Source: Flavobacteriales bacterium (GTDB taxonomy: Bacteria; Bacteroidota; Bacteroidia; Flavobacteriales_D; Parvicellaceae). From it: a stretch of DNA of 36,982 nt. The stretch lies in contig JAQXDK010000034.1 of the NCBI GenBank assembly GCA_029251405.1, positions 1-36,982 of the forward strand, in the 5' to 3' direction. The position numbers and the translations under genes were made by a program. Below the pieces are notes generated by a model. The model ran no database searches and had not been told where the DNA came from. It saw only the letters and a list, made by a program, of their open reading frames with translations. Position 1 is the stretch's first letter. The number at the start of each line of letters is the position of its first letter. Of this stretch, positions 1-14,803 are shown one piece after another.

Positions 1-3000
1 AACCCATTCACTTTGACAGGATTAAATCCTGGACAGAATGTAGATATTTATATTCAATCTAATTGTGGAAGTGGTGATTTAAGTTTATGGTCTAGTCCAA
101 TTAATATTCAAACCCCTTGTGGAATAGCAATTGCTCCTTATTTTGATAATTTTGATACTGGGATTCCATGTTGGACACAAGATCAAAATGATGTCTTTGA
201 TTGGACTTTAAATTCTGGAGGAACACCATCTAGTGGTACAGGTCCTTCTGATGATTTATCTTTTGGAGGAGATTATATATATATAGAAACTTCTAGCCCA
301 AGAGTTCAGGGAGATAGAGCCATATTATATTCACCAAATATTGATATCTCAGCTTTAGCTTCTCCACAGTTAAGATTTTTTACCCATATGTTTGGAAGTA
401 ATATAGATTCCTTAATTATTGACTTAACAGATGATGGAGGTTTAACTTACAATAATATTTTTATCAAAAATGGTAATCAAGTAAACCAATGGGTTGAAGA
501 ATCTATATTATTATCAAATTATTCTGATACAATTCAATTCAAAATTACCGGTACTAGAGGTTCTAGCTGGGCTGGGGATATTTCAATTGATAATTTTCAA
601 ATTATAGAGGCCCCAACCTGCCCCAAGCCAACTGCATTATCAGCCTCAAATATAACAGCAACATCCTCAGATTTTTCTTGGACACCTGTTGGAACAGAAA
701 CAGCTTGGAATATTGAAATTGGAACTACTGGGTTCGCTCAAGGAAGTGGTACTACGTCAGTAGTTAATACACCAGCAATATCATTTAGTTCTTTAAGTCC
801 TTTTTCATCATACGATGTTTATGTCCAAGCTGATTGTGGTGGTGATGTTAGTGCTTGGTTTGGACCTGTTTCTTTTACGACTTCTGGTCCTGGAGACTGT
901 TCTTCAAGCTTAACCTATTCTTATACTGATAATAGTACTATTACATCTAGTTTGAAAGGGTTTGTCGCAAATAACCCTGGTGATTACATCACTTTAACAT
1001 TTACTGGTGGTTCTACGGAAAATTGTTGTGACAACTGGTATATAAATGACGCTGCAGATGGTTCTGGAAATACTATTGCATCAGGTGCTGGTTTTATTAC
1101 ATCTTCTTCTAGCGGAGGTATTTTTGAATCATCAACCGGAGAAATTTCTTTTTATGTTCTTTCAGATGGTTCTGTTACCGGAAATCCATTTGTTTTCTCT
1201 GCATCTTGTGTTGCTGCCCCAACTTGCCCCGAGCCAACAGGATTAACAGCTAGTAACATTACTACTAATTCTGCTGATATTACATGGACACCTGGTGGAA
1301 CTGAAACTGCTTGGAACCTTGAATTTGGTCCATCAGGATTTTCTCAAGGTACAGGCACTAATATTTCAGTTGCCAATAATCCGCACACATTATCCGGATT
1401 GAACCCTAGTTCTAACTACGATATTTATATACAGGCAGACTGTGGAAGTGGTGACTTGAGTAATTGGACTGGGCCCTATTCATTCTCTACTTCATGTGGA
1501 ATAGACTTGTCTCCTTATTTTGAAAACTTTGATAGTGGGCTTTCACAATGCTGGATTCAAGAAACTAGTGATCAATTTGATTGGTCAATTAACAGTGGAA
1601 CGACACCTTCAACTCCAACTGGCCCTTCGGATGATATTACGGGTGGAGGTAATTATTTATATATAGAAACATCTTCTCCAAGAACTCCTGGGGACTCTGC
1701 AATAATAAACTCTAACTTTATTGATATTAGTAATTTATCAAATCCAGAATTGAGTTTTTCTTATCACATGTTTGGTGCTTCCATTGGTGAATTATCTATT
1801 TGGATTACTGATGCTACAGGATTATCTAATCAAATTTTCATAAAAAATGGAGATCAGGGCGATCAATGGAATTTTGAATTTATTGATCTTTCTAGCTATT
1901 CAGGTATAGTACAATTCTCAATTATTGGAGCAGTTGGAGATGATGGTACAGGAGTTCAATATTGGGGAGATATTGCTATAGATAATTTTAAAGTGGCGGA
2001 AATTCCAATTTCTGGCACATGGAAATTAGCAACTATTCCAGGGGCTTTAAAAGTAGGACCGAATTTTAATGATGGATCTTGGTGGTCTAGTTCGTTAATG
2101 AATTTATTTGACCGATCTTGTCATTTTGATGATTCCATCACTTTTTCTCCTAACGGTGACTACATTCATCACATGAATGGTAGCACTTTTATTGAAAATT
2201 GGCAAGATGGACAAGGTGATAGATGTGATGTTCCAGTTTATCCTCATGATGGATCGGTGCCAGCAACATGGACTTATGATGCAACTACTTCTCAAGTTAC
2301 ACTAAACGGACTTGGTGCACATATGGGACTACCTAAAGTAAATAACAGCGGAGAAATTTCAGATCCTGCAAATGCTGTTTCTTCTATTACCTATGACATT
2401 TCTTTTTCACCCAATAGAGATACAATGTATTCTGACATTAATTTTGGACCAGGATGGTGGAGATATATTTATGTTAAAAATTCCTTATGCTCTCCAATAA
2501 TTTATACTGATGTAGTTTCATCAGCTTGTAGTAACTATACTTGGCCATTAAGTGGAAATACCTACACTGTTAGCAATAATTCAGATATTATAGAAACTTC
2601 TAATGGGCAAGGGGCTTGTAATGACAGTATTGTTCTTTTGGATTTAACCATTGATTATCCATCATCTGGAACGGATACTATTACTGCTTGTGATAGTTAT
2701 ACTTGGATAAATGGATCAACATATATATTTAGTAATAATACAGCTACACATACTATAACCAATGCAGCTGGTTGCGATAGTGTAGTGACTTTAGATTTAA
2801 CCATTAATTACAGCACTACCGGAACGGATGTAATCACTGCGTGCGATAATTATACGTGGATAGACGGGATTACTTATACGAGTAGTAATAATTCAGCTAT
2901 GCATACTTTAACTAATGCTATTGGTTGCGATAGTGTAGTGACTTTAGATTTAACTATTAATTACAGCACTGCCGGAACAGATGCTATTACCGCTTGTGAC

Positions 3001-5052
3001 AATTATACATGGATAGACGGGGTAACTTATACGAGTAGTAACAATGCAGCTACGCATACTCTTACAAATGCAGTTGGCTGTGATAGTATAGTGACTTTAG
3101 ATTTAACTATTAATTACAGCACTACCGGAACGGATGTAATTTCAGTATGTGATAGTTACACTTGGATAGATGGAGTTACTTATACTTCTAGCAACTTTAA
3201 TGCTAAAGACACGCTGACTAATGCAGTTGGCTGCGATAGTGTAGTTTCACTAAACTTATCTGTCCAGTATTCTACTTCTTCGCTCTCAACAGTTGCATCT
3301 TGTAATAGCTATACTTGGAACGGAATGATGTTATTTTCTAATGGAATTTATGTTTCTACATCTACCAATTCTTCTGGTTGTGTTCAGACGGACAGTTTAG
3401 ATTTAACGATTACCACGTCTAGTACAACTGTAAATGACACGGTATGTGATAGCTATTCATGGAATGGAAATACGTTTAGTACTAGCGGAACCTACTATAA
3501 TCCTAATGGTAGTTGTGTTGATACATTAAACTTAGTAGTGAATTATTCCACTAGTACTTATTTAAGCACCATATCTTGTGATGAATATGTTTGGAATGGC
3601 AATGCCATTACAGGTACAGGGTTGTATTTAAATACTTCTACTAATAGTGATGGATGTCCTCAGTATGATTCATTAGATTTAGTGGTAAACAACAGTACAT
3701 TTGGTACGGATGTGATTACAGCATGTGACAGTTACACTTGGATAGATGGAATTACCTATACGAGTACCAATAACACTGCTCAAGATACTTTAGTTAATGC
3801 AGTAGGTTGTGACAGTATTGTTACCCTAGATTTAAGAATGTATTATACTAATTATGGTACAGATGTGATAGCTGTGTGTGATAGCTTAACTTGGATAGAT
3901 GGAATTACTTACACAAGTAGTAATAATACGGCAACTGATACTTTAATGAATATAGATGGTTGTGACAGTATTGTAACCTTAGATTTAACGATTAATTATT
4001 CGATAGCAACGAATGATAGTTTAGTGGTTTGTGATGTTGCTAATTGGAATGGCAATTTATATACAACAACTGGGATATATGTAGATACGTTACAGACGAT
4101 ACATGGATGTGATAGTATAGTTACGATGGATTTGGTAGTGAATTATTCAATAGCGACTAATGATAGTTTAGTGGTTTGTGATAGTGCATTATGGAATGGA
4201 AATACGTATACAACAACAGGAACTTATGTGGATATTTTACAGACGATACATGGATGTGATAGTGTGGTTACGATGGATTTAGTGGTGAATTATTCCATAG
4301 CAACTAATGACAGTTTAGTGGTATGTGACAGTGCATTATGGAATGGGAATAACTACACAACAACTGGGATATATGTAGATACGTTACAGACGATACATGG
4401 ATGTGATAGTGTGGTTACAATGGATTTAGTAGTAAACTATAGTGCAAGTTCTATTGATACTGTAATAGCGTGTTATGAGTACCTATGGAATGGGAATAAC
4501 TACACAACAACTGGGATATATTTAGATACGCTACAGACGATATACGGTTGCGATAGTTTAGCTACATTAGATTTAACGGTTGTTGATTTAAGTGTTAGTA
4601 TTGATACTGCACAATTAACCCTTGTGGCAAACATTATTGGTGGTATGGGGCCATTTAATTATACTTGGAATACAGGTGAAACAGTTGCAACTATAACCCC
4701 AACAGCTAACGGTCAATATTGGTTAGTGGTAGTTGATATCAATGGATGTAGTTCTGACACAGTGTTTTTTGATGTCACCTACTTGCCAAATGTCGGAATA
4801 GTTGATAATGGAAAGCCGATGATTATTAATGTTTATCCAAACCCAACACTAGGAAATGTTACCATTGACATAGTAAATCAACAAACCGATGTACAAATAA
4901 CATTGTATGACATGTATGGGAAACTAGTTTACTTAAATAAATACCAGGATTCTAAACTAATAGAGTTTAGTTTTGATGCTCCACCAGGAATATATTACTT
5001 AGATATAAAATCTGGTGAGAGGTCTTCAAGACATAAAATTATTAATCTATAA
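1..5052 (+). CDS. Giant T9SS-secreted multidomain adhesin-like protein, 5' end missing
   Basis: The reading frame is open from base 1, so the true start lies upstream; 1683 codons are present. Order by nucleotide: end of an FnIII domain (to about 115); MAM-like domain (136-609); FnIII (616-890); Cys-rich CUB-like domain (898-1215); FnIII (1222-1490); second MAM-like domain (1498-2001); a Trp/Gly-rich beta domain (2008-2487); 14 tandem Cys-paired repeats (2506-4590); an Ig/PKD-like domain (4591-4790); and a type A T9SS sorting domain with the VYPNP motif near 4828 and a short basic end (RSSRHKIINL). Inference: it is exported by the Sec system, crosses the outer membrane by T9SS and is anchored or released at the surface, where FnIII/MAM domains suggest adhesion. 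No catalytic domain is visible. The gene ends at a hairpin facing the convergent downstream gene. Substrate or partner is unknown. Confidence 0.9.
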   Translation, partial: NPFTLTGLNPGQNVDIYIQSNCGSGDLSLWSSPINIQTPCGIAIAPYFDNFDTGIPCWTQDQNDVFDWTLNSGGTPSSGTGPSDDLSFGGDYIYIETSSPRVQGDRAILYSPNIDISALASPQLRFFTHMFGSNIDSLIIDLTDDGGLTYNNIFIKNGNQVNQWVEESILLSNYSDTIQFKITGTRGSSWAGDISIDNFQIIEAPTCPKPTALSASNITATSSDFSWTPVGTETAWNIEIGTTGFAQGSGTTSVVNTPAISFSSLSPFSSYDVYVQADCGGDVSAWFGPVSFTTSGPGDCSSSLTYSYTDNSTITSSLKGFVANNPGDYITLTFTGGSTENCCDNWYINDAADGSGNTIASGAGFITSSSSGGIFESSTGEISFYVLSDGSVTGNPFVFSASCVAAPTCPEPTGLTASNITTNSADITWTPGGTETAWNLEFGPSGFSQGTGTNISVANNPHTLSGLNPSSNYDIYIQADCGSGDLSNWTGPYSFSTSCGIDLSPYFENFDSGLSQCWIQETSDQFDWSINSGTTPSTPTGPSDDITGGGNYLYIETSSPRTPGDSAIINSNFIDISNLSNPELSFSYHMFGASIGELSIWITDATGLSNQIFIKNGDQGDQWNFEFIDLSSYSGIVQFSIIGAVGDDGTGVQYWGDIAIDNFKVAEIPISGTWKLATIPGALKVGPNFNDGSWWSSSLMNLFDRSCHFDDSITFSPNGDYIHHMNGSTFIENWQDGQGDRCDVPVYPHDGSVPATWTYDATTSQVTLNGLGAHMGLPKVNNSGEISDPANAVSSITYDISFSPNRDTMYSDINFGPGWWRYIYVKNSLCSPIIYTDVVSSACSNYTWPLSGNTYTVSNNSDIIETSNGQGACNDSIVLLDLTIDYPSSGTDTITACDSYTWINGSTYIFSNNTATHTITNAAGCDSVVTLDLTINYSTTGTDVITACDNYTWIDGITYTSSNNSAMHTLTNAIGCDSVVTLDLTINYSTAGTDAITACDNYTWIDGVTYTSSNNAATHTLTNAVGCDSIVTLDLTINYSTTGTDVISVCDSYTWIDGVTYTSSNFNAKDTLTNAVGCDSVVSLNLSVQYSTSSLSTVASCNSYTWNGMMLFSNGIYVSTSTNSSGCVQTDSLDLTITTSSTTVNDTVCDSYSWNGNTFSTSGTYYNPNGSCVDTLNLVVNYSTSTYLSTISCDEYVWNGNAITGTGLYLNTSTNSDGCPQYDSLDLVVNNSTFGTDVITACDSYTWIDGITYTSTNNTAQDTLVNAVGCDSIVTLDLRMYYTNYGTDVIAVCDSLTWIDGITYTSSNNTATDTLMNIDGCDSIVTLDLTINYSIATNDSLVVCDVANWNGNLYTTTGIYVDTLQTIHGCDSIVTMDLVVNYSIATNDSLVVCDSALWNGNTYTTTGTYVDILQTIHGCDSVVTMDLVVNYSIATNDSLVVCDSALWNGNNYTTTGIYVDTLQTIHGCDSVVTMDLVVNYSASSIDTVIACYEYLWNGNNYTTTGIYLDTLQTIYGCDSLATLDLTVVDLSVSIDTAQLTLVANIIGGMGPFNYTWNTGETVATITPTANGQYWLVVVDINGCSSDTVFFDVTYLPNVGIVDNGKPMIINVYPNPTLGNVTIDIVNQQTDVQITLYDMYGKLVYLNKYQDSKLIEFSFDAPPGIYYLDIKSGERSSRHKIINL
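2506..4590 (+). repeat. 14-unit protein-coding tandem repeat, mostly 147 or 153 bp
   Basis: Units start at 2506, 2662, 2815, 2968, 3121, 3274, 3421, 3550, 3697, 3850, 4003, 4150, 4297 and 4444. Units 2-5, 9 and 10 encode 51 residues with an ACDSYTWIDG core; units 6, 8 and 11-14 encode 49 residues with a WNGN core; unit 1 has 52 and unit 7 has 43. Nearly every unit has two Cys (positions 10 and 36-38), suggesting a disulfide within or between repeats. Units 12 and 13 differ at only 3 of 49 residues, and units 13 and 14 share an identical 38-nt block (4337-4374 and 4484-4521), signs of recent duplication or conversion. This is a coding repeat and not a CRISPR array. Confidence 0.93.
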
Positions 5053-5054
5053 AT

Positions 5055-5088
5055 AAGTAATGGCCAGATAATTATTTGGCTATTACTT
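5055..5088. terminator. Hairpin between convergent genes, possible bidirectional terminator
   Basis: A 12-bp stem (5055-5066 with 5077-5088, one G-U pair) closes a 10-nt loop. It lies just after the stop of the adhesin gene and includes the stop codon of the convergent gene at 5072. There is no long U tract on either side, so termination is plausible but not certain. Confidence 0.45.
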
Positions 5089-6661
5089 TACCAAACTGAG
5101 TACTTCCATTTTTGTGATAAAGTCTTACCAAAACGACTTGATCAGAGACCTTAGAAAATATTTCTTGTTTATCGTAATTTTTTTGAAAGTAAATATTAGT
5201 TAATTCACTTATATTTTCTGAATAAATTAAGTTTCCACCAAGATTATAAAATTCAATTTTATTAATTTCTCTTGATAACCAATTAGACTCTACTGTAAAA
5301 CTTTTTCCAACTGGATTTGGAAATATTCTTATTGAATTATTTTGTAAATAATTATAATTAATACTTGTCATTCCATTTTGGTTTAAGGAGTCTAAATCTA
5401 GAGTTTCATCACCAACCATATAGTCTGTAAAGAGACAGAAAATCACAAACATTTCGTCAGTTGTGTTTAAACCACCACAAATTGTTTGAGGAGGTGTATT
5501 GGGATTGTGTAAATTTGCAGATGTATTATCGTAAAAAGCAGATGCTTTTATAGTACTTCCAGGATCAATTTTTAGCATTTTTTTAAAATGATAAGATCCT
5601 TGCCATTCAAAATCCCAGTTAGGAACCTTAATAAATTTACTTGTATCTCCATTTGAGTTTAAACCATAAGTTTCAATGGATTTCCCAATTAAATGCATGT
5701 GAGGGAATATACCAAAAAGGGATAATATTGGAGATGAATTTGGTATTTGATATGAGTCATTTACAGTCTTTGTCTGATTTGGAGGAACGCAAAAACTAAT
5801 GTTTTGTATAATTGGATTTATTTCAATTTCTCTAAACTGATTTACTTGATCTGGATAAAAATAAAAGTGAACTTTTGTACTGTCCATCATCCCTAAAGAC
5901 CCAACAGGATAGTGCATTGCCAATATAACATTACTATTTGCTGGAAAACTCATTCCAAATGCCATATTTTCGTCTCCAGGATAAGTAATCGGTAAAGAAC
6001 CAGGTGTAAATTCTCCAACTAAAATACCGTTACTTGGTCCCATACAGTTATTTTCTATCCCAATTGTTGAGTTACCAGTTGGATCAATATAGACTAAACA
6101 ATGGTGGACTATAGAATTATTTCCAGGAACAACTTCAACAGACCTTATTTTTTTATCTGTCAGCAGTTGACTTGGGATAGTAAAACATACGTAGTCATCG
6201 GCTTGAAAGGCATTACTGCTATAGGTTGGAGCCTGAATAGTTAAGTCAGGAGTTCCAAGTTGAGGTCCTGAAGTATTATAGCTTGGAGGGGATGGTAACA
6301 TATTAGGATTTCCTTCAGGAGCTCCAAAACCAATCCAATCGTTAATTAAATTTATTTCTTGATTAGTTAATACTCTTTCATGTCTAAACCTAGTATAGTT
6401 AGTGTCTGGAGGCCAAGGAGGCATGTACCCACTTAATACTGAAGATTGTATCTCGTTTCTCCTACTGAACGCATCTTGATAATTAATTAAAGAAAATGGA
6501 CCGACGCCACCCGAATGATGACATCCTGTGCAATTAGTATAAAAAATTGGTGCAATATGCTCGCTAAAAGTTATAACTCTGGTATTTGAATTTTTAGAGT
6601 TATTTAAAATAAAGGAGCTTATTAAAAAAACAAGAATAGATAAAGGAAATAATTTTTTCAT
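5072..6661 (-). CDS. Secreted heme c plus PHM-like copper monooxygenase, T9SS type A
   Basis: 529 residues. N-terminal signal peptide (about 1-20). A c-type heme domain follows, with CTGCHH (C44, C47, H48) and a likely distal Met80 in GYMPPWPPD. Residues about 135-415 resemble copper type II monooxygenases of the peptidylglycine hydroxylase (PHM)/DBM class: HH at 186-187 and H250 (MHYP) fit the CuH site, while H321 and H323 (HMH) and M404 fit the CuM site. The C terminus (about 440-529) has FPNP at 447-450 and reads as a type A T9SS sorting domain. Inference: a surface or secreted oxidase/hydroxylase in which the heme could feed electrons to the copper centre. Substrate is unknown. It may be cotranscribed with the tRNA gene 45 nt upstream. 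ATG start at 6661. Confidence 0.82.
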   Translation of the reverse strand: MKKLFPLSILVFLISSFILNNSKNSNTRVITFSEHIAPIFYTNCTGCHHSGGVGPFSLINYQDAFSRRNEIQSSVLSGYMPPWPPDTNYTRFRHERVLTNQEINLINDWIGFGAPEGNPNMLPSPPSYNTSGPQLGTPDLTIQAPTYSSNAFQADDYVCFTIPSQLLTDKKIRSVEVVPGNNSIVHHCLVYIDPTGNSTIGIENNCMGPSNGILVGEFTPGSLPITYPGDENMAFGMSFPANSNVILAMHYPVGSLGMMDSTKVHFYFYPDQVNQFREIEINPIIQNISFCVPPNQTKTVNDSYQIPNSSPILSLFGIFPHMHLIGKSIETYGLNSNGDTSKFIKVPNWDFEWQGSYHFKKMLKIDPGSTIKASAFYDNTSANLHNPNTPPQTICGGLNTTDEMFVIFCLFTDYMVGDETLDLDSLNQNGMTSINYNYLQNNSIRIFPNPVGKSFTVESNWLSREINKIEFYNLGGNLIYSENISELTNIYFQKNYDKQEIFSKVSDQVVLVRLYHKNGSTQFGKVIAK

Positions 6662-6706
6662 TTCTAAAGGATTGACAAATCTTGAAAAAGATTAGGTTTA
6701 AAAAAG

Positions 6707-6777
6707 AGGTCTCGATCGGATTCGAACCGATGTAGATGGTTTTGCAGACCACTGCCTAGCCACTCGGCCACGAGACC
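6707..6777 (-). tRNA. tRNA-Cys (anticodon GCA)
   Basis: A full cloverleaf folds on the minus strand: 7-bp acceptor stem (6771-6777 with 6708-6714), anticodon stem GTGGT/ACCAT, loop CTGCAAA with anticodon GCA at 6743-6745, T loop TTCGAAT, and U at the discriminator position (6707), which is the known identity base for Cys. The variable arm is 4 nt, ruling out Ser or Leu. CCA is not encoded. Confidence 0.96.
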
Positions 6778-12550: not shown

Positions 12551-14803
12551 TTATCTAATTATAGTTATTGGCCCAGTTTGTGTTGATTGTGATGGTTTTA
12601 ATTCTAGAATATAGTAATAAGTGCCAGAAGGAAGTTCATTTCCTTCTTTTGTCATACCATCCCACTGGAAGTTATTTTCATTAAATTCTATTATTTTGTT
12701 TCCCCATTTATTAAAGATGACCATTCTAACTTCATTAGAATTAGGAAAATCTAAATTCCAATAATCATTAATGCCATCGCTATTAGGACTGAATGTATTT
12801 GCAATTTCAATACAATCTGGGTAATTCGAAACCTCTATACTATCTAAAAGTGTAAAGCAGTTATTTGCGTCAGAAACTAGTACACTGTAATTTGTGTTTT
12901 CTGCATAGAGAAGTGGGTTTACTAATGATCCATCTGACCAATTATAGCCATAATAACCTAATCCATTTCTAGAATGAGCATGTATCATGATTCCACCTTC
13001 TGAACATGTTTCTTCTTCTATTGAATAATTTACAATAATAGGACTTTCATTAACCTTAATGGTTTCAACATCTGTTGCAATGCAAGGGCCTAAAGTGTAA
13101 GTGTAAGTGATGTTATGTACTCCTAAACCTGCAGTCTTTGGATTAAAGAAACCATTTTCAACACCAACTCCTGAAAAAACTCCTCCAGAAGGATTTCCTC
13201 CTGAAAGTTCAAAAATTGGAGCATCATCTCCACAAATTTTCTCAAATTCATTTAAATGTGTTTCGAGTGTATAAACATCTACGGTTACACCAATACAATT
13301 ACTTGCAGGACACAAGCCTCCTTCAGCCCTAACATAATAATTTGAAGTCGTTAACGGAGAAACAGTAATTTGATTGTTTGTTGTTGTTGAATCAATTAAA
13401 TTACCAGTGCCACAGCTTCCCTTATACCAAAACCATTGACTTCCATTGTTTAATTGATTGGAAGTGTCTAATGTTATTGTGGATGAATTGCCATTACAAA
13501 TCTCATAAAGACTTGCATTGATAGTGTGGGGATCTGCATTTGATGGCAACACAACTACAGGAATTTGAGTGGTATTTGTGCAGTTATTACTATCGGTAAA
13601 AGAATAAGTAATTATGTGATCACCTAAACCAGAAATATTTGGGTCAAAAACACTATCAATTATTCCAGTTCCTGAATAAATACCTCCTTGTGGAAATCCA
13701 CCTTGTAGCAGAATAGGTGATGATTCACAAATAGTATCAAGTGGTGAATGATAAACATTTAAATCGTATGTATTGATTAATATTTCTTCACAGGATGATG
13801 CACCACAAAGACCACCAATTGCTCTCACATAGTACATCGTTGTGGAAGATGGTGTTACTGTCAAGGATGTTCCCGTTCCAATTATAGTACCACTACAAGA
13901 AGCTTCATACCAGTTCCATGTAGCAGAAGATCCTAATTGACCACCTACAACATTCAAAGTTGTTGCACCACCTGTGCAAAAATTATTAGCACTTGCTTGG
14001 ATTGCAGAAGGTGCGATTGAACCATCTTTTGTGTAAACAGTTATGCTTTTACATAAAGAAGCTCCACAAGTCCCAATAACTCTTGCGTAATAAGTAGTTG
14101 AGGAATCTGGAAATACAGTTATAGAATCACCTACACCAACCAAAGAAGAACCGCAAGAATTTTCGTGCCAAGATATTGAATACCCATTAGGAAAAGGATT
14201 TGAAAAATGAGCAAACAACTGTACGGCTGTTTGTGGACATACTGTATCTTCTATAATCCAAGTGTTAGAAATTGCATCGAATGTTGAATCTATACTTAAC
14301 GAATCCAAAGGAATAAAATAAGGTAAGGAATTTATTGTAATATCTTTACAAATAGTGTTATTACATGATCCTTCAGCTCTAACAAAATAAGTAGTATTTG
14401 ATGTTTGAGTTGTATTAATTGAGGACCCATTACCTACAACATTACCACCGCAAAAATCATCATACCAAACCCATTGACTGTTAGTTCCTAAAGAACCACC
14501 AACAACATTTAAATTGATGTTAGAATTATTACAAATTATAGTATCAGAACTGGAAACATTAGACGGATCAGTAGAGCTTAGATTCACAACTAAATTTAGT
14601 GTAACTACACTATCGCAACCAGCTGCATTTGTTAGCGTATGTGTAGCAGTAGTGTTAGAAGATGTGTAAGTTACCCCGTCTATCCAAGTGTAGCTGTCAC
14701 AAGCTATTTGATTGTCGGTGCCAGTAGTTTCACATTGGCTAAATCCTTTGTTAAAAGATAAACTCATTACGATGAGCCATATTAATATCGAAAACTTATT
14801 CAT
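12551..14803 (-). CDS. T9SS type B (gliding-motility C-terminal) surface protein with Ig-like repeats
   Basis: 750 residues. Signal peptide 1-22; one 51-residue Cys-paired repeat (26-76) of the kind tandemly repeated in the gene at 1-5052; then alternating Ig-like modules, one class with WYxxxCG and YYVRAxGxC motifs (about 80-155, 170-255, 260-345, 420-505), the other with GGxxSGxGV motifs (about 350-415, 510-580). The C terminus (667-750, starting IANTFSPNSDGINDYW) is the type B gliding-motility-associated sorting domain. Inference: a T9SS-exported surface filament or adhesin, first gene of a cassette with PorP/SprF and the OmpA-like protein. No enzyme domain is seen. ATG at 14803; the 101-nt gap upstream has no convincing promoter or terminator. 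Confidence 0.92.
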   Translation of the reverse strand: MNKFSILIWLIVMSLSFNKGFSQCETTGTDNQIACDSYTWIDGVTYTSSNTTATHTLTNAAGCDSVVTLNLVVNLSSTDPSNVSSSDTIICNNSNINLNVVGGSLGTNSQWVWYDDFCGGNVVGNGSSINTTQTSNTTYFVRAEGSCNNTICKDITINSLPYFIPLDSLSIDSTFDAISNTWIIEDTVCPQTAVQLFAHFSNPFPNGYSISWHENSCGSSLVGVGDSITVFPDSSTTYYARVIGTCGASLCKSITVYTKDGSIAPSAIQASANNFCTGGATTLNVVGGQLGSSATWNWYEASCSGTIIGTGTSLTVTPSSTTMYYVRAIGGLCGASSCEEILINTYDLNVYHSPLDTICESSPILLQGGFPQGGIYSGTGIIDSVFDPNISGLGDHIITYSFTDSNNCTNTTQIPVVVLPSNADPHTINASLYEICNGNSSTITLDTSNQLNNGSQWFWYKGSCGTGNLIDSTTTNNQITVSPLTTSNYYVRAEGGLCPASNCIGVTVDVYTLETHLNEFEKICGDDAPIFELSGGNPSGGVFSGVGVENGFFNPKTAGLGVHNITYTYTLGPCIATDVETIKVNESPIIVNYSIEEETCSEGGIMIHAHSRNGLGYYGYNWSDGSLVNPLLYAENTNYSVLVSDANNCFTLLDSIEVSNYPDCIEIANTFSPNSDGINDYWNLDFPNSNEVRMVIFNKWGNKIIEFNENNFQWDGMTKEGNELPSGTYYYILELKPSQSTQTGPITIIR
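14576..14728 (-). repeat. Single copy of the 153-bp repeat unit also found at 2506-4590
   Basis: This exactly unit-length block encodes residues 26-76 of the type B surface protein. It matches unit 4 of the array (2968-3120) at 38 of 51 residues, including an identical 20-nt stretch (14667-14686 against 3010-3029). It lies right after the signal peptide. Confidence 0.88.

Follow-up and report, generated by a model that had tools for sequence, protein, structure and literature searches.

A Bacteroidota protein family joining a predicted c-type cytochrome to a copper core of the PHM/DBM fold

Here we describe P0001, a protein of a Flavobacteriales bacterium in which a predicted c-type heme domain, a dicopper core of the PHM/DBM fold and a type IX secretion (T9SS) tail follow one another in a single chain. 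Computation establishes the homology, the fold, the ten ligands, the old fusion and the secretion tail, and we regard both the homology to PHM/DBM and the assignment of copper and heme ligands as practically certain. P0001 is probably an exported O2-using copper monooxygenase whose built-in c-type cytochrome would pass electrons to the copper site CuH. This architecture of heme c, PHM-like dicopper core and T9SS signal, put forward in an original prediction made from the sequence, is borne out by Pfam, invariant ligands and fold matches.

Results

Gene and genomic setting

The gene occupies positions 5072-6661 of the window (the whole stretch of 36,982 nucleotides that was analysed) as an open reading frame of 529 codons on the minus strand; the original prediction had the coordinates exactly, its strand is here corrected to minus, and the opposite plus strand is rich in stops there. 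It lies downstream of gltX-like and folB-like genes, named by sequence likeness, and of a tRNA-Cys gene. The stop of a convergent gene for a 1679-residue repeat protein is 19 bases away; this neighbour carries tandem-like repeats of 147 and 153 bases (49 and 51 residues) at window positions 3007-4587, and its repeat motif, judged by eye, recurs once, early in the protein encoded at 12551-14803. The features referred to below are as follows.

13..5052, plus strand: convergent neighbour, 1679-residue repeat protein, T9SS-adhesin-like (open reading frame; T9SS role by eye)
5072..6661, minus strand: whole gene P0001, 529 residues, with signal peptide, heme c, CuH, CuM and T9SS tail (open reading frame, invariant ligands, purifying selection)
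5075..5341, minus strand: T9SS C-terminal sorting domain, residues 441-529 (PF18962 at 20.1 bits, below its cut-off; fold matches to T9SS tails)
5408..5800, minus strand: CuM (catalytic copper) domain, residues ~288-418 (PF03712, E 2.6e-9; found in 64/67 relatives)
5450..5452, minus strand: Met404, predicted CuM ligand (67/67; in register with the EEM/DEM Met of DBH/PHM)
5693..5701, minus strand: His321-Met-His323, predicted CuM ligands (both His 67/67; in register with HTH of DBH/PHM)
5801..6256, minus strand: CuH (N-terminal copper) domain, residues ~136-287 (PF01082 in 34/67 relatives; DBH/PHM fold match)
5912..5914, minus strand: His250, predicted third CuH ligand (67/67; in register with HY of DBH/PHM)
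6101..6106, minus strand: His186-His187, predicted CuH ligands (67/67; in register with HH of DBH and PHM)
6308..6574, minus strand: c-type heme domain, residues ~30-118 (CxxCH and the MPPW Met 67/67; domain model matches PccH)
6422..6424, minus strand: Met80 (MPPW), predicted second axial heme ligand (67/67)
6518..6532, minus strand: heme-attachment motif C44-T-G-C47-H48 (invariant in relatives)
6596..6661, minus strand: signal peptide, residues ~1-22 (hydrophobic helix at residues 5-19 of the model; boundary by eye)
6706..6777, minus strand: tRNA-Cys, between the folB-like gene and the P0001 gene
6823..7173, minus strand: folB-like upstream neighbour (open reading frame; similar neighbour in 6/80 related loci)

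P0001 is a single-copy protein in its own genome, where the two other matches are T9SS tails only. Against five relatives its whole-gene dN/dS is 0.10-0.16, and the gene is therefore under purifying selection; a pseudogene reading was dropped on the same values. The copper core gives 0.06-0.08 against five relatives, and in four of six comparisons its dN/dS is below that of the other two protein parts.

Domain families and conserved ligands

Pfam recognises the second copper domain, Cu2_monoox_C (PF03712), at residues 291-412 (37.2 bits against a cut-off of 23, E 2.6e-9). Por_Secre_tail (PF18962; 20.1 bits against 27) and Cytochrome_CBB3 both score below their cut-offs, and Cu2_monooxygen (PF01082) is absent from P0001 up to E 10; the latter is found in 34/67 relatives, and the fold match described below spans both copper domains. 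Pfam showed no PAL lyase domain in the chain, and NCBIfam yielded no catalytic family. Across the 67 aligned relatives, each scanned singly at E<=0.01, Cu2_monoox_C was found in 64, Por_Secre_tail in 53, Cu2_monooxygen in 34 and Cytochrome_CBB3 in 29.

C44, C47, H48, M80, H186, H187, H250, H321, H323 and M404 are invariant in a 24-row and in a 67-row alignment (24/24 and 67/67). The larger of the two was built from 150 profile hits, of which 141 open reading frames cover more than 360 profile positions, with rows containing X and rows more than 72% alike removed. All ten residue numbers given beforehand for the heme, CuH and CuM ligands were thus correct, and no family member devoid of them appeared among the 67. 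For 38 of these rows the conservation is partly built in, because they came from a pattern scan that included HMH/HxH or MPPW; for the remaining 29 the source was a whole-genome protein, profile or family search. The original prediction had proposed a survey of the fusion across Bacteroidota. When the copper domain PF03712 alone was used as query against 247 Bacteroidota genomes, 16 of them gave 18 matches, and every match carries an N-terminal CxxCH or CX4CH together with HH and HxH. A D/E-E-M string is present in 17 of the 18; in L130, which lacks it, the 67-row alignment shows the Met in place. At family composition, CxxCH would be expected by chance about 0.0003 times per 110 residues; a chance-motif reading was dropped on the ligand conservation and on the heme motif in 18/18 copper-domain matches.

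Two further cysteine pairs vary among the 67 relatives. C159 and C206 occur together in 41 and are both missing in 18, with C159 alone in 8. C291 and C395 are both present in six rows and both absent from 61, never mixed, and since the pair co-occurs or is wholly missing it probably forms a clade-specific disulfide.

The copper core resembles DBH and PHM

With the 67-row profile as query against all PDB chains, human dopamine beta-hydroxylase (DBH, 4zel) ranked first (E 3.9e-12) and PHM next (E 2.2e-7 to 1e-5). The HH, HY, HxH and Met of the family stand in register with all six DBH copper ligands, and the invariant Q354 and E403-M404 correspond to FQE and EEM in DBH. An AlphaFold2 model from the same alignment (mean pLDDT 91, pTM 0.76) superposes on DBH 4zel_A with Z 23.5 and rmsd 2.5 over 271 residues at about 17% identity, and on PHM 6ala_C with Z 22.9, the double jelly-roll core included; Foldseek concurs (4zel_A, E 3.4e-14). 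The superposition on PHM or DBM proposed at the outset gave this fold, and together with the DBH/PHM alignments it makes it likely that the copper ligands converge. The label "PHM-like" needs adjusting: by fold PHM and DBH are tied, the profile lies nearer to DBH (3.9e-12 against 2e-7), and the PHM substrate arginine, discussed below, is replaced throughout the family.

All other matches have Z of 9.0 or less. One of them is PNGase F (Z 8.5), a bacterial double jelly roll which an excerpt of PMC8812541 places in the same Pfam clan as PHM; its general fold is alike, P0001 has the PHM-type copper ligands, and identity with PNGase F was dropped on Z 8.5 against 23.5 for DBH. By its Cu2_monoox_C domain, its six ligands and its double jelly-roll, P0001 fits the copper type II ascorbate-dependent monooxygenase superfamily on all three counts.

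The likeness to DBH, tyramine beta-hydroxylase and MOXD lies in the two-domain jelly-roll copper core with ligands in register, and P0001 and DBH each bear an extra domain N-terminal to that core. They differ in what flanks it: DBH has an N-terminal DOMON and a dimerisation domain, whereas P0001 has a c-type cytochrome and a T9SS tail. DOMON is a beta-sandwich, and that of DBH has a cytochrome fold without heme according to the portion of PMC4846438 cited here; the N-terminal domain of P0001 is instead helical, with CxxCH. PHM shares the copper core and its ligands, and differs in that P0001 is without an equivalent of Arg240 (0/67), is without a PAL domain by Pfam and has an added heme c domain.

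The closest structures (4zel_A, 6ala and 5wja_D) superpose at rmsd 2.5-2.8, against 3.7-4.7 for the other PHM structures listed, and in Foldseek the open 4zel_B ranks below the closed 4zel_A. Chain 4zel_A is termed closed by its authors (PMC4846438, in part), and the PHM citrate forms 6ala and 5wja_D have an altered domain arrangement (PMC6123673, in part). The model of P0001 may accordingly resemble a closed form, a hint and no more because the predictor may have trained on 4zel.

A predicted N-terminal heme domain at near-constant sequence spacing

Modelled alone, the heme domain is helical (pLDDT 84.5), and its nearest fold is the stand-alone monoheme cytochrome PccH (Z 7.2, 1.8 A over 75 residues), a Z in the range that the aligner calls common. 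YhjA, a cytochrome c peroxidase, and then hydrazine synthase follow, and all seven matches listed are heme proteins. In a profile search hydrazine synthase was nearest (E 0.0011); the heme part of its alpha subunit, near by both fold and profile, belongs to an anaerobic enzyme. Foldseek with the heme domain alone gave nothing significant (best E 0.72). Because of this common Z, the non-significant Foldseek search and the sub-cut-off Pfam score, the heme domain is assigned chiefly by its invariant CxxCH and Met; with this motif, the distal Met and a small all-helical domain, P0001 has the marks of a class I c-type cytochrome, and heme binding is predicted.

Spacing within the heme part is nearly fixed (H48 to M80, 32 residues in 65/67 relatives; M80 to W109, 29 in 67/67). 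From heme to CuH, H48 to H186, it is 138.3 +/- 1.4 residues, with 137-139 in 60/67, which suggests a set geometry. Distances between relatives in the heme part correlate with those in the copper part across the 67 rows (r 0.73, reached in none of 1000 permutations), which points to long shared inheritance of the two parts. These alignments favour an ancient fusion of set geometry over a loose tether.

Predicted export

By fold, residues 441-529 match the T9SS tails of RemA, NucA and mirolase (Z 8.3-8.5; RemA 8.5); the T9SS tail 8gl6_D gives Z 8.5 at 25% identity. A T9SS-like tail of at least 70 residues ends 55 of the 67 relatives, nine end directly after the core, two of these with a lipobox, and three have a short extension. 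P0001 is a predicted T9SS cargo, given a Por_Secre_tail hit in 53/67 relatives and the fold match to the RemA tail. Its own genome encodes a cytochrome c assembly gene and a GldM-like gene, the latter in two pieces and under that family's cut-off, which makes it plausible that heme is attached and that the protein leaves through the type IX system.

Distribution and variant forms

Matches at E<=1e-5 were found in 34 of 60 genomes of close relatives, and the gene is thus not universal there; among these 34, G055 holds the heme part only and G008 a fragment at a contig edge. In G014 the copy is broken by three stops, a loss in progress. A pattern scan of named genomes returned at least 583 relatives, of which 80 were kept, with Bacteroidota-type names (Crocinitomicaceae, Flavobacteriales, Chitinophagaceae, Saprospiraceae and others). 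The gene is present in two cultured relatives, Crocinitomix catalasitica and Fluviicola chungangensis. In a protein search of the 247 Bacteroidota genomes 51 matched, 20 of them over the heme-copper part and the rest over T9SS tails, an undercount given that six candidates were scored per genome; with five genomes found only via PF03712, at least 25 of the 247 have a heme-copper protein.

A distant second branch comprises six lipoprotein-like sequences (L115, L119 and L124-L127) that keep every copper motif and have CX4CH or CxxCH as well as MPLG. Aligned by hhalign with the main family, the branch reaches a probability of 99.3, and its profile matches PHM alone in the PDB, weakly (E 0.22). 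One relative, L150, has an extra N-terminal redoxin domain. On an IMG/VR contig (L164:1104-2990), a 629-residue redoxin-heme c-PHM protein is encoded with a TetR-type regulator downstream, and the gene adjoins phage head-decoration and tail genes; it is possibly a phage-carried copper monooxygenase, or else the edge of a prophage. In Nonomuraea gerenzanensis (L165:3530-4690, unannotated in the plasmid table), a 385-residue lipoprotein-like relative has all copper motifs and no CxxCH. Since this heme-less form exists, the fold does not require heme, which is standard in the sampled Bacteroidota, not in all bacteria. A plasmid collection queried with P0001 and L032 gave no match.

Neighbouring genes

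The original prediction had also pointed to the neighbouring genes, which gave a weak pointer and no partner common to all: apart from the gene itself, no family lies nearby in more than 20 of 80 loci. A secreted BD-FAE-type esterase is near in 20 of the 80 and in ten adjoins the gene at a distance of 5-81 bases (family confirmed by Pfam for two members, the only ones scanned), and FadL- and GDSL-lipase-like genes lie upstream in eight (family checked for one locus). These neighbours point weakly to hydrophobic esters, weakly because they may be the synteny of one lineage. The neighbour list held 79 proteins, those above 450 residues cut to 400; 58 were scanned with Pfam, the 21 left out being minus-strand neighbours.

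Within the window no gene next to P0001 was recognised as an electron donor, and across the 80 related loci a CxxCH neighbour is rare. At L112:3655-9169 a relative stands in a same-strand run with two further CxxCH proteins, one a two-heme Cytochrome_CBB3, and with two similar small exported proteins, YceI-like by eye; the run is a possible electron-donor cluster. At L110:3222-6328 the gene is present in two tandem copies.

Discussion

Monooxygenase chemistry is, from sequence and model, quite likely for P0001, and the heme is likely to be the electron port to CuH; metal loading, electron direction and catalysis are what we infer for this protein. In the proposed cycle the apoprotein would be exported by Sec and heme c attached in the periplasm, after which the type IX system would hand the folded protein to the surface or the medium. 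Some donor would reduce the His48/Met80 heme, which would give electrons singly to CuH (His186, His187, His250), in the role that ascorbate has in PHM/DBM. O2 would bind at CuM (His321, His323, Met404), the substrate would lose hydrogen, CuH would supply the second electron, and the hydroxylated product would be released. The original description of the cytochrome as a self-contained electron supply was overstated: a single heme carries a single electron and depends on a reductant of its own, which makes it a relay at most. A heme module that feeds a copper enzyme is also seen in copper nitrite reductases with fused cytochrome c and in fungal cellobiose dehydrogenase feeding LPMO, whose catalytic folds and chemistry are unrelated.

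The substrate is probably not a glycine-extended peptide. Arg240 of PHM, which we take to lie two residues before the first CuM His and to bind the carboxylate of the peptide substrate, corresponds to position 319, where the 67 relatives have F in 43, A in 11, W in four, N in three, L in three, others in three and R in none. Because this arginine is replaced in every relative, peptide amidation is unlikely, and PHM-type amidation was dropped as a reading. Our best guess is an extracellular compound, aliphatic or aromatic, that is small or hydrophobic.

Electrons might also run outward from the same fold and metals, the copper core oxidising a substrate or working as oxidase or peroxidase, with the heme as the exit to a respiratory chain or acceptor. 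Class I c-type hemes pass electrons both ways, and the near folds of the heme domain include the monoheme cytochrome PccH and the peroxidase YhjA; yet PHM/DBM chemistry takes in two electrons from a reductant, and all six PHM/DBM ligands are kept in 67/67 relatives, so that we consider outward flow unlikely. That the scaffold is non-catalytic or differently catalytic, a copper/heme protein for scavenging, sensing or surface redox relay, seems quite improbable: it would accord with substrate contacts unlike those of PHM (F, A, W or another residue at the Arg240 position in all 67) and with the lack of conserved pathway neighbours in the 80 loci, but both copper sites, including the CuM Met, are invariant, and it is the copper core that most often has the lowest dN/dS.

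The invariance of C44, C47, H48 and M80 in 67/67 relatives, and the heme motif in 18/18 copper-domain matches of the Bacteroidota sample, make it very unlikely that ascorbate or another small reductant feeds CuH directly, as in animals, with the heme domain there for folding, docking or the sensing of O2. Such direct reduction would suit the heme-less Nonomuraea relative, which implies that some bacterial members must be reduced otherwise, and the DOMON of DBH, where a cytochrome fold stands in the N-terminal position without heme (PMC4846438, in part). The preferred reading remains a monooxygenase with the heme as inward port.

The PHM/DBM fold is known already, and a Pfam scan alone would reveal the pairing of heme and copper domains. 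In the CC-licensed part of PubMed Central, which omits most subscription journals and all preprints, we found no account of bacterial PHM/DBM-type enzymes with heme c. A PNAS 2022 paper, in the part cited here, assigns the PHM family to eukaryotes (PMC8812541); by contrast, PHM/DBM-type proteins are common in the sampled Bacteroidota. Electron passage between the two coppers of PHM/DBM is still debated, as is the question of which form does the work, open or closed, according to portions of PMC4846438 and PMC6123673. If the heme of this family is covalent on the CuH side, it would be a built-in optical reporter of each incoming electron, and inter-copper transfer and the open-closed question would therefore become directly testable.

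A speculative extension, to which we give a rather low probability, is that bacteria hold an ascorbate-independent PHM/DBM branch in which a near-fixed N-terminal cytochrome c would be the regular electron port, the closed conformer with its coppers close would be the one that works, and the N-terminal slot would be filled per lineage by heme c, by redoxin and heme c or, in animal DBH, by a heme-less DOMON. A secreted heme-driven hydroxylase with no need for ascorbate could be a useful catalyst of C-H oxidation. Amidated peptide hormones and noradrenaline are products of PHM and DBM, and our findings suggest a marine-bacterial counterpart of these animal enzymes, wired by heme and not by vitamin C.
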